Shown here: piece after piece, positions 28,480-32,436 of the stretch
Numbering within the stretch: position 1 is the stretch's first letter
Layout: the number at the start of each line of letters is the position of its first letter
Assembly (NCBI RefSeq): GCF_004364315.1
Contig: NZ_SOBR01000012.1
Location: 1 to 35,938, forward strand
Source of the DNA: Chromohalobacter marismortui
GTDB taxonomy: Bacteria > Pseudomonadota > Gammaproteobacteria > Pseudomonadales > Halomonadaceae
DNA length: 35,938 nt
Direction: 5' to 3'
Notes under the pieces: generated by a model
The model's database searches: none
Told to the model about the DNA's origin: nothing
The model's input: the letters and a program-made list of their open reading frames with translations, nothing else
Made by a program: the position numbers and the translations under genes

Positions 28480-28600
28480 GATCTATGAGCCTTTGCAATC
28501 TTTTTGATCTTAACCATTCATTTCTATTATTAAACCCGGCTGACTACCCTGTCCATACGTTATTGGAAACGTCTTTGCAAAAAGTCAGGAGCAGATCCGC
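28480..28600. promoter_or_regulatory. Divergent control region with ctttgcaa repeats
   Basis: This AT-rich gap has two copies of ctttgcaa, at 28491-28498 and 28573-28580. The second lies just before the ribosome site (caggag) of the oxygenase gene. TTGATC (28504-28509) and TATTAT (28525-28530) could form a promoter, but the 15-bp spacing is short. LysR binding here is likely, but the exact site is not clear. Confidence 0.45.
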
Positions 28601-29482
28601 ATGCCAGCCAACGCTACGCAGGCAGACGACAACGCACTCCACGGTCTGATCGATCTCGAGCGCTATCCCATCGACCAGCTGGATGGCGAGCGCGGCCGGG
28701 CGCTCGTCGACGAGTGCCGTGCCCAGCTCGGTCAGGACGGTTGTGTGGTACTCAAGGGCTTCGTGCCCGACGAGGCCCTGACACGGCTGGAACGCGAAAC
28801 TGAGCGACTCTCGCCGGAAGCGCATTACAACCAGACCGAAACCAATCCCTACAATAGCGACGGCGACCCCAGCCTGCCGGCCTCGCATCCCAAGAACCGC
28901 TTCGGCGACCGCACCAACGGCTTCGTCGCCGGCGACCGCATCGGCGCCGACACCATCATTCGTCAGGTCTACTCCGATCCCGGTTTCCAGCGCTTTATCG
29001 CCAGTGTGGTGGGCATGGAAGAGATTCACCAATACGCCGACCCGCTGGCGGACCTGGTGGTCAACGTGCTGCGCGAGGGCTGCCAGCACCCGTGGCACTA
29101 CGACACCAACGAATTCATCGTCACCATGATGACCCGCCAATCCGAGGGCGGGGGCCGGTTCGAATACGCGCCGGGCATCCGCAGCCCCGAAGGCGAGAAC
29201 TTCGACGGGGTGGAAAAGGTCATCGACGGCGACCGCGCGCAGATCAAGTCGCTGGATCTCCAGCCGGGCGATCTGCAGATCTTCTTCGGCCGCTACTCGC
29301 TGCACCGCGTGACCCCGGTGGAAGGCGACCGCGAGCGCCACACCGTGATCTTCGCCTATGCCAAGGAGCCGGGCTTCATCGGCCGCCCCGAGCGCGCCAA
29401 GCGTATCTTCGGGCGCATGGCGCCGGTGCACGAGCGTTTGCTGGAAGAAGGCATGCAGCGCAGCGACAGCCTCGCCGACTGA
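28601..29482 (+). CDS. PhyH-like Fe(II)/2-oxoglutarate oxygenase
   Basis: A 293-residue cupin-fold oxygenase related to phytanoyl-CoA dioxygenase. The iron triad is H166 and D168 in HPWHYDTNEF and H235 in YSLHRVTP; R246 in DRERHTVIF would bind 2-oxoglutarate. The HxD motif, with Asp present, means hydroxylation or oxidation rather than halogenation. It lacks the EctD signature of ectoine hydroxylases, so it is not an ectoine hydroxylase by eye. It is the first gene after the LysR control region and is separated from the M24 gene by a strong hairpin. The substrate is unknown; context suggests it prepares a small, possibly quaternary or branched, compound for the next two enzymes. Confidence 0.82.
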   Translation: MPANATQADDNALHGLIDLERYPIDQLDGERGRALVDECRAQLGQDGCVVLKGFVPDEALTRLERETERLSPEAHYNQTETNPYNSDGDPSLPASHPKNRFGDRTNGFVAGDRIGADTIIRQVYSDPGFQRFIASVVGMEEIHQYADPLADLVVNVLREGCQHPWHYDTNEFIVTMMTRQSEGGGRFEYAPGIRSPEGENFDGVEKVIDGDRAQIKSLDLQPGDLQIFFGRYSLHRVTPVEGDRERHTVIFAYAKEPGFIGRPERAKRIFGRMAPVHERLLEEGMQRSDSLAD

Positions 29483-29514
29483 CAATACCGGATCACCGGC
29501 CGCCGACCCCGGCC

Positions 29515-30890: not shown

Positions 30891-30948
30891 GGCGGTTCCG
30901 CGCCTTTATCCCCGACATGACGCCCATATTCGATAGAGCAAAGTTGTT

Positions 30949-32436
30949 ATGACAGACGTATCCCACCGCATCGCCGGCGAGCCGCTGACAAGCGAGCGCA
31001 CCATCGACGTGCTCAACCCGGCCACCGCCGCGCCGGTTCGCCGCCTGGCGATGGCCGATACCGCCACCGTGCAACGCGCCATCGACGCCGCCCGTGACGC
31101 CCAGCCCGCCTGGCGCGACATGCCGCCGGCCAAGCGCGCCCAAGTGATGTATCGCTTCAAGACGCTGCTCGAACGTGATGCCGATGAGATCTGCGCGCTG
31201 ATCAGCGAAGAGCACGGCAAGGTGCTCGAGGACGCCATGGGCGAACTCAAGCGCGGCATCGAGAACGTCGAGTACGCCTGCGGCGTGCCGGAACTCCTCA
31301 AGGGCGAGTACTCCCACAACGCCGGGTCGGGCATCGATACCTGGTCCAACCATCAGCCGCTGGGCGTGGTCGCCGGCGTCACGCCGTTCAACTTCCCGGC
31401 CATGGTGCCGCTGTGGATGTACCCCATGGCGCTGGCTTGCGGTAACGCCTTCATCCTCAAGCCCTCCGAGCAGGCGCCCTCGGCCGCCGTGAAGATGGCC
31501 GAGCTGCTCGACGAAGCCGGATTGCCCAAGGGGCTGTTCAGCGTCGTCCACGGTGATCGCGAGGCCGTCGACGCGCTGATCGAGGCGCCCGAAGTGCGCG
31601 CGCTGTCGTTTGTCGGCTCTACCCCGGTGGCGCGCAAGATCTACGAAGGCGGCACCCAGCAGGGCAAGCGCGTGCAGGCCCTGGGTGGCGCCAAGAACCA
31701 TGCCGTGGTGCTGCCGGATGCGGATATCGACAATGCCGCCAGCACCCTGATCGGCGCCGCGTACGGCAGTGCCGGCGAGCGCTGCATGGCGATCTCCGTG
31801 GCCGTGTGCGTGGGCGACGCCACCGCCGACGCCCTGGTCGAGCGTCTCGCCGCCCAGGCCCGCGAGCTCAAGATTGGCCCGGGCACCGAGCGCGGTCTCG
31901 ACATGGGCGCGCTGATCAACGAAGGCCAGCGTGACAAGGTCGCCGGCTACATCGGGCAGGGCGCTGCCGCCGGTGCCGAGCTGGTGGTCGACGGCCGCGA
32001 GCACCCGCTGGTGGAAGGCTCGCCCGGCTACTTCCTCGGCGCCACGCTGTTCGACCGTGTCACGCCGGAGATGAGCATCTACCGCGACGAGATCTTCGGG
32101 CCGGTGCTGTGCGTGGTGCGCGTCGAGACCTTCGAGGACGCCATCGCCCTGATCAACGCCCACCAGTACGGCAACGGCACCTGCGTGTTCACCCGTGACG
32201 GCGAGGCAGGGCGCCGCTTCGCCGACGCCATCGAAGTCGGCATGGTCGGTATCAACGTCCCGCTGCCGGTCCCGGTCGCCTTCCACAGCTTCGGTGGCTG
32301 GAAGGACTCGCTGTTCGGCGACCTGCATGCCTACGGCCCCGACGCCGTGCGCTTCTACACCCGCCGCAAGGCCATCTCCCAACGTTGGCCGAAGCGTAGC
32401 GACCAGGAAACCGCCCAGTTCAGCTTCCCCTCCTGA
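30949..32436 (+). CDS. mmsA: CoA-acylating (methyl)malonate-semialdehyde dehydrogenase
   Basis: A 495-residue aldehyde dehydrogenase of the MmsA type. It oxidises malonate or methylmalonate semialdehyde with NAD+ and CoA to acetyl- or propionyl-CoA with loss of CO2. Features are VTPFNFPAMVPLWMYPMAL, LKPSEQAP, and the nucleophile C279 in GSAGERCMA. The C-terminus is normal. In Halomonas the DMSP enzyme DddC is of this family, so its place behind a DddP-like gene fits a route through 3-hydroxypropionate and malonate semialdehyde; valine or inositol breakdown is the other usual context, but the required genes are not nearby. A strong terminator follows. Confidence 0.9.
   Translation: MTDVSHRIAGEPLTSERTIDVLNPATAAPVRRLAMADTATVQRAIDAARDAQPAWRDMPPAKRAQVMYRFKTLLERDADEICALISEEHGKVLEDAMGELKRGIENVEYACGVPELLKGEYSHNAGSGIDTWSNHQPLGVVAGVTPFNFPAMVPLWMYPMALACGNAFILKPSEQAPSAAVKMAELLDEAGLPKGLFSVVHGDREAVDALIEAPEVRALSFVGSTPVARKIYEGGTQQGKRVQALGGAKNHAVVLPDADIDNAASTLIGAAYGSAGERCMAISVAVCVGDATADALVERLAAQARELKIGPGTERGLDMGALINEGQRDKVAGYIGQGAAAGAELVVDGREHPLVEGSPGYFLGATLFDRVTPEMSIYRDEIFGPVLCVVRVETFEDAIALINAHQYGNGTCVFTRDGEAGRRFADAIEVGMVGINVPLPVPVAFHSFGGWKDSLFGDLHAYGPDAVRFYTRRKAISQRWPKRSDQETAQFSFPS

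Follow-up and report, generated by a model that had tools for sequence, protein, structure and literature searches.

A conserved pair of oxygenase and DddP-like M24 genes in Halomonadaceae with a proposed role in splitting an imported osmolyte-like compound

A two-step logic, implying hydroxylation beside a heteroatom and subsequent cleavage by a second metal enzyme, is common to peptidylglycine amidation (PHM hydroxylase and the metal lyase PAL), PhnY*/PhnZ, and TmpA/TmpB, the second enzymes of these systems belonging to families other than M24. The DddD-DddA-DddC route of dimethylsulfoniopropionate (DMSP) utilization ends at malonate semialdehyde with a methylmalonate-semialdehyde dehydrogenase (MMSDH). 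Here, we addressed a locus of Chromohalobacter marismortui in which a LysR-family gene is transcribed divergently from a plus-strand run of three genes encoding a 2-oxoglutarate (2OG)/Fe(II) oxygenase, a DddP-like M24 metalloenzyme, and a dehydrogenase of MmsA type; “window” hereafter means the whole stretch of 35,938 nucleotides that was analyzed (contig NZ_SOBR01000012.1). The conserved gene set to which this run belongs probably imports, oxidizes, and splits a small protective molecule, feeding one half of it to central metabolism. From the DddD-DddA-DddC route it differs in the first steps, the operon being devoid of such genes (no search was aimed at DddA and DddD outside it, nor at AcuK). 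A parallel in design comes from a halophile of the same family, Vreelandella boliviensis, where the 2OG dioxygenase MgdH hydroxylates methylguanidine to a hemiaminal with half-life of more than 1 h and a dedicated second protein, MgdL, fragments it (PMC12508155, 2025). Since this hemiaminal is so stable and is split by MgdL, a dedicated lyase can be needed in chemistry of this kind. In the accessible part of the same paper, the model of MgdL shows a beta-barrel together with an acid-base pair of Asp and Arg, and the protein is not described as an M24 enzyme. Thus the earlier suggestion, made from a sequence-only reading of this DNA, that the pathway has no described counterpart has to be narrowed: a dioxygenase-then-lyase route is known for methylguanidine, with proteins different from those considered here.

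The oxygenase gene occupies positions 28601-29482 (+) and is followed by the M24 gene (29607-30890, +; Peptidase_M24 and Creatinase_N matches) and, after a spacer of 58 bases, by mmsA (30949-32436, +). The open reading frame of M24 opens at TTG 29601, though ATG 29607, used by the orthologue in one of the relatives (L026), is the likelier start. The gene of the regulator (27595-28479, −), recognized by HTH_1 and LysR_substrate Pfam matches, falls just outside the segment 28480-32436 to which the sequence-only reading had been attached; positions of the open reading frames confirm the arrangement described there. Conservation was assessed in the loci of 80 relatives, which are the best 80 of 89 found, belong nearly all to Halomonadaceae, and are not independent; 16 of them are shorter than 16 kb. 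M24 is encoded directly downstream of the oxygenase in 79 of these loci, and in the 80th (L082) the end of the contig truncates it. Joint conservation of the two genes, on which the sequence-only reading had staked itself beforehand, is thereby borne out. A divergent LysR gene is present within 1.4 kb in 74 loci. Distances calculated for the oxygenase and for M24 correlate with r of 0.97 over 95 loci and 0.78 within the clade of the window, identical proteins and those with stops having been removed and some loci (L113, L012, L149, L064, L078, L097, L114, and L115) being absent from the comparison as devoid of M24 although M24 is present there. Pairing of the two genes is beyond chance. In six named Chromohalobacter relatives, the oxygenase is 94-99% identical to that of the window.

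Assignment of the oxygenase to PhyH, proposed originally, is to be replaced: the protein is a 2OG/Fe oxygenase, as was suggested, but it matches Pfam HalD with 62.2 bits (cut-off 26), gives no match to PF05721 or to any NCBIfam model at E 0.001, and is predicted to have a BesD-type fold. The C8 paralogue shows a weak PhyH match (PF05721, 23 bits). An AlphaFold2 model built from 40 orthologues has a mean predicted local distance difference test score (pLDDT) of 81.8, and the solved folds nearest to it are HalB, HalD, HalA, BesD, and a BesD homologue that is a hydroxylase, at about 14-20% identity and with a best E of 6e-14; BesD-family chains occupy Foldseek ranks 1-41; a profile search against PDB sequences returned weak matches only. 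Residues H166, D168, H235, and R246, which we take from family knowledge to be the iron and 2OG ligands, are invariant in the 40 aligned orthologues, leaving intact the HxD...H site noticed in the sequence-only reading. The HxD iron ligands are encoded by the H166-Y167-D168 codons at 29096-29104 (+) and the distal iron-ligand histidine H235 at 29303-29305 (+). Halogenases of the HalD/BesD family carry HxG, with Gly replacing the carboxylate iron ligand, whereas the window oxygenase has HxD as does the hydroxylase homologue of BesD. With Asp in place it should hydroxylate rather than halogenate, presuming that this rule of the family applies, and halogenase activity was rejected on the ground of the invariant motif. 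Thus the predicted fold and the HalD profile are shared with BesD/HalA-D and the hydroxylase homologue, while the surroundings of the window oxygenase are catabolic and osmolyte-related as opposed to amino-acid halogenation. The BesD literature, including the accessible part of PMC10187165, yielded no substrate-pocket residues that could be mapped onto the protein.

For M24, the nearest solved kin are 4s01, 4rzy, 4s00, and 4b28 (E 2e-80 to 2e-76), tabled as M24 peptidases. The first three are presumably DddP of another Roseobacter-group bacterium, and 142 of 386 positions (37%) are identical between M24 and the 4rzy chain; 4b28 is RdDddP, as given in the accessible part of PMC4108388. The “DddP-like” label of the sequence-only reading is thus justified by kinship and by the fold family, and also by residues. 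In the 102 rows of pair-type M24 (101 distinct, since WIN and L001 are both the window sequence; proteins with stops and identical ones had been left out of the count), the six metal ligands of DddP, D295, D297, D307, H371, E406, and E421, are kept throughout, and Tyr366 of DddP, which is Tyr347 in the window protein, is kept in 102 of 102. The position of Asp377 is taken by Gly358 (codon 30672-30674, +), Gly being found in 100 of the 101 distinct sequences, that is, in 88/88 of window-type and 12/13 of paralogue-type. According to the accessible part of PMC4108388, both Tyr366 and Asp377 are invariant in DddP lyases, Asp377 being favored as the base and Tyr366 remaining an alternative candidate. 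A tree built from 29 chosen rows places the Gly-type sequences together on one side of a branch (support 100/98), and the single protein keeping Asp377 (L153) branches just outside, so that it is possibly an intermediate between DddP and the Gly branch. This M24 is encoded on a Pseudomonas plasmid together with two oxygenase relatives (L153, 9885-14193). The curated DddP model NF043017 scores the window protein at 322 bits, its cut-off of 600 not being reached. Because Asp377 is replaced by Gly in all but one of the distinct sequences, the window M24 is probably not a DMSP lyase of the ordinary kind, as the sequence-only reading had also supposed; the candidate assignment to DddP proper was abandoned given the model score, the lost Asp377, and the separate branch, to which the oxygenase neighbor may be added as a further difference from DddP. 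Ectoine hydrolase DoeA/EutD was likewise rejected (NF038259, 56.8 bits with cut-off 575; TIGR02993, 24.4 bits with cut-off 613).

The intergenic region between the LysR and oxygenase genes contains a conserved element, AACCATTCATTTCTATTAT, at 28512-28530 (+), which is a probable LysR operator/promoter element judging by its conservation across relatives. Of 23 such regions aligned, which range from Chromohalobacter to Marinobacter and an Ectothiorhodospiraceae bacterium, most contain a recognizable variant of it; that of Arhodomonas (L101) is clearly diverged. An exact copy of the 15-base core ATTCATTTYTATTAT is present in 54 of the 80 loci and in 93 of 215 loci overall, once in each, and all 93 exact cores are situated no more than 200 bases upstream of an oxygenase gene. 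In the complete set of contigs of the own genome (3.55 Mb, 23 contigs), the 19-mer with up to three mismatches finds one site, and the reversed control finds none. It is this element that the LysR protein would bind.

Absence of an osmolyte transporter, emphasized in the sequence-only reading, holds for the window, where five representative queries at E 1e-5 gave no match to BCCT, Opu permease, or Opu binding protein and only ATPases of ATP-binding cassette (ABC) transporters responded, but it is a feature of the window and not of the system. Among the 80 loci, 25 have OpuC-type parts of two or more kinds, 28 have a carbon-nitrogen (CN) hydrolase, and 12 have an MmgE/PrpD gene. Across 151 genomes of the family (window-type oxygenase at E <1e-140, CN hydrolase and OpuC binding protein at E 1e-60), these genes were detected in 52, 53, and 58 genomes, respectively. 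Oxygenase and CN hydrolase occur together in 51, the former alone in 1 (G526), the latter alone in 2 (G455 and G546), and neither in 97; for the oxygenase and the OpuC binding protein, the numbers are 51, 1, 7, and 92 in the same order. Paralogue-type oxygenases are associated much more weakly (22/36). Within the genus, eight genomes have all three genes and two (G001 and G009) have none. In the 51 genomes with both oxygenase and CN hydrolase, the two share one contig in 44, lie within 50 kb in 42, and within 10 kb in 20. The OpuC/CN-hydrolase cluster of the own draft genome is located near the end of contig C3 (L182) and comprises two binding proteins, two permeases, an ATPase, MmgE/PrpD, and two CN hydrolases. 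Named kin in the alignments of the OpuC binding protein include proteins binding choline, betaine, carnitine, and ergothioneine, so that no single ligand is indicated. The same cluster includes a 176-amino-acid open reading frame resembling cytosine permease (partial profile match) beside a full-length cytosine deaminase (L182, 9469-11483).

The dehydrogenase exceeds the cut-off of TIGR01722 for MMSDH by a wide margin (657 bits with 448.5 required), in agreement with the CoA-acylating (methyl)malonate-semialdehyde dehydrogenase proposed from the sequence, and its nearest solved structures are 5tjr and then 4zz7, the latter presumably DddC. Two further MMSDH copies, 62% and 58% identical to that of the operon, are encoded in the own genome. 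The gene adjoins the oxygenase-M24 pair in 45 of the 80 loci, representing several genera. It is followed in the window by a terminator-like hairpin of 12 pairs with a T tail (32459-32488, +), a call resting on position and stem strength, as a scan of the region gave 3 such sites against 3.3 in shuffles.

The pair itself is not confined to this operon. Two further oxygenase-M24 pairs (47% and 46%) are encoded in the own genome, one accompanied by a BCCT transporter, an OpuAC binding protein, and an isopenicillin-synthase-like oxygenase (L103), the other by an OpuAC binding protein, a GbdR-like regulator (309.6 bits, below the cut-off of 480), a gamma-butyrobetaine-dioxygenase-like protein, and a BKACE protein (L104). 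Betaine-ABC-like genes follow the pair on a Caballeronia plasmid, and annotated glycine-betaine ABC genes are about 7 kb away from that on a Pseudomonas plasmid. These betaine-type neighbors link the chemistry to betaine-like solutes in general and, together with the OpuC genes beside relatives and the co-occurrence described above, favor the osmolyte-like substrate foreseen in the sequence-only reading. In six loci of rhizobial type (a guessed label; L200-L205), an M24 of 64-65% identity with Gly at position 377 stands beside a GbdR-like regulator, an isochorismatase-family hydrolase, and an alpha/beta hydrolase in all six cases and a family-5 binding protein in three; an amidase-like partner thus recurs, whereas the oxygenase is not universal. 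Other kin bearing Asp are found beside a BCCT transporter (L210) or, in L207 and L211, beside a dimethylglycine-dehydrogenase-like gene and an MttB gene, the latter recognized by its like N-terminus. An M24 of about 44% with MttB-, dimethylglycine-dehydrogenase-, and homocysteine-methyltransferase-like neighbors occurs in L206, L207, and L211; Asp377 is kept in L207 and L211, the two checked, and Pfam was run on the L206 copies of the L207/L211 neighbor genes.

Gene order, protein families, active-site residues, conservation, co-occurrence, and the operator, all read from sequence, allow a scheme to be drawn in which every reaction, the order of steps, the substrate, the binding of LysR, and the use of the product by MmsA are predictions. 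An OpuC-type ABC transporter would import the substrate, and the BesD-fold enzyme would hydroxylate its carbon beside a heteroatom, giving a metastable carbinol of hemiaminal or carbinolamide type. The DddP-like dinuclear metalloenzyme would then hold this carbinol through its metals and split the carbon-heteroatom bond; as the intermediate is already hydroxylated, no base is needed for a C-alpha proton, which would explain the change of Asp377 to Gly. The three-carbon piece may be malonate semialdehyde (or methylmalonate semialdehyde), which MmsA would convert to acetyl-CoA (or propionyl-CoA), and the other fragment, which bears the nitrogen, is possibly an amide or ureido compound that the CN hydrolase would remove, an amide leaving group being proposed because this hydrolase co-occurs. 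The LysR protein would control the operon through the conserved operator. Hydroxylation beside a heteroatom with metal-assisted cleavage would account at once for MmsA, for the fixed pair, and for an M24 that keeps its metals but has lost Asp377. That an imported osmolyte-like zwitterion is cleaved oxidatively in two steps, with MmsA at the end, is a reading that we hold tentatively, as possible and somewhat short of probable. The candidate substrates were beta-alanine betaine, DMSP, ureido- or N-acyl-beta-alanine, and guanidinopropionate, with no preference for any of them. No guanidine riboswitch was detected in the window, L182, L103, L104, and L033 at Rfam gathering scores, guanidine carboxylase genes and MgdH homology not having been searched.

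Several observations speak against this scheme. Four genomes from outside the family (G121, G136, G277, and G369) have an oxygenase of 42-47% with no M24 found within the 19 kb read, and the six rhizobial-type loci have no such oxygenase beside their Gly-type M24, four of these genomes holding just a relative of 32-33% elsewhere; as each enzyme is thus seen without the other, neither strictly needs its partner. M24 of L153 retains Asp377 in spite of being paired with an oxygenase. Fisher p values for the co-occurrences with CN hydrolase and transporter (1e-36 and 2e-31) ignore shared ancestry and are inflated by it, and both of these partners are without assigned substrate. A search of the own genome did not find the operator at the OpuC/CN-hydrolase cluster, so that its co-regulation with the operon is not shown. 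Carbinols of quaternary ammonium compounds should decompose without any lyase. MmsA is the weakest link of the proposed route: its gene is not adjacent to the pair in 35 of the 80 loci, in 34 of which at least 4 kb downstream were read and the absence is real (one is a short contig), and it was not seen beside the paralogous pairs in the stretches read. The route to malonate semialdehyde claimed in the sequence-only reading, depending on this gene, is accordingly unproven, and the overall interpretation given there is supported in part, the co-occurring CN hydrolase not having been foreseen.

The inconstancy of mmsA, along with two other MMSDH genes in the genome, fits the assumption that the pair modifies or salvages an osmolyte, as EctD does, without degrading it, and that MmsA is an unrelated neighbor serving valine or beta-alanine catabolism. 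Placement of mmsA shortly after M24 and before the hairpin, its adjacency in more than half of the loci, and the fact that the M24 fold normally cleaves bonds make this unlikely. The order of action might also be reversed, M24 opening an imported cyclic or guanidino/amide osmolyte as a hydrolase in the manner of creatinase or ectoine hydrolase, the BesD-family enzyme then hydroxylating the amino-acid-like product, and downstream enzymes finishing the process. M24 hydrolases of this sort are known, creatinase and DoeA are among the PDB matches of M24, BesD-family structures have been solved with lysine and ornithine, and a CN hydrolase co-occurs; nevertheless, M24 is far from DoeA and creatinase with DddP as its nearest kin, and the operon lacks an aminotransferase or any amino-acid step, so we regard this order as improbable too. 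Least credible, and very unlikely, is beta-elimination of DMSP type, in which M24 would convert DMSP or beta-alanine betaine to acrylate with the oxygenase in a side role: DddP is indeed the nearest characterized kin and Tyr366, the alternative base, is retained, but the favored base is gone (both roles as assigned in the accessible part of PMC4108388), the DddP model does not reach its cut-off, and the tight pairing with the oxygenase is left unexplained.

Oxidative cleavage with MmsA as the last step, if true, would mean that halophiles have an oxidative route of two enzymes for organic osmolytes and that the BesD fold has a catabolic role, and would provide a testable operon with a dedicated operator. 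Its parts belong to known families and its two-step logic has precedents; the new element would be a Gly-type M24 acting as lyase of hydroxylated substrates. In the boldest form, which we find doubtful, the Gly377 branch of the DddP fold would be a new class of dinuclear-metal carbinolamide/hemiaminal lyases working behind a BesD-fold hydroxylase, in Halomonadaceae at least. Together with CN hydrolase and MmsA, it would cut an amide- or ureido-bearing osmolyte of beta-alanine type into malonate semialdehyde and an amide, the change from Asp to Gly would mark where elimination via the C-alpha proton (DMSP) gave way to cleavage of hydroxylated substrates, and the paralogous pairs would treat other betaines alike. 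DddP-like sequences serve as markers of DMSP cleavage in marine surveys, and the Gly sister branch could be miscounted among them; Asp377 versus Gly offers a simple marker separating the two. The gene set is not named in titles or abstract openings found in the PMC literature (subscription papers are outside this scope), and the word M24 is absent from the main text, as far as accessible, of PMC12478193, PMC6104435, and PMC9279137, two Chromohalobacter transcriptome papers and one on betaine demethylation; it occurs once in PMC3187862.

Some relatives of the oxygenase were met in other surroundings. The loci L159-L162 are those of G121, G369, G136, and G277, and the surroundings in L159 and in the part of L162 that was covered look housekeeping-like by eye. 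A relative of 38% in L154 (11950-24397), with no annotated M24 nearby, is accompanied by an MttB-family methyltransferase, two flavin adenine dinucleotide (FAD) oxidoreductases, and an ABC transporter. Relatives of 35-37% in L166 and L167 stand beside genes resembling those of histidine utilization by eye, L166 also having a class-III aminotransferase and an MmsA (71%).

In the window, the LysR gene adjoins a malonate-use module (23253-27559) encoding malonyl-CoA decarboxylase, malonyl-CoA synthetase, MadL, and MadM, which was rejected as part of the conserved system, being present in 4 of the 80 loci and in one of these only partly. On the other side, the guanine plus cytosine content drops from 0.63-0.69 to 0.37-0.45 downstream of the operon, which is thus bordered at its end by a stretch of foreign appearance. 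The three AT-rich genes found directly 3′ of it (32906-35848, with guanine plus cytosine content of 0.37-0.45) encode an HNH_5 protein, a protein of 345 amino acids with a weak PADLOC match to PDC-S31, and a protein of 193 amino acids, and possibly constitute a small defence or mobile island.

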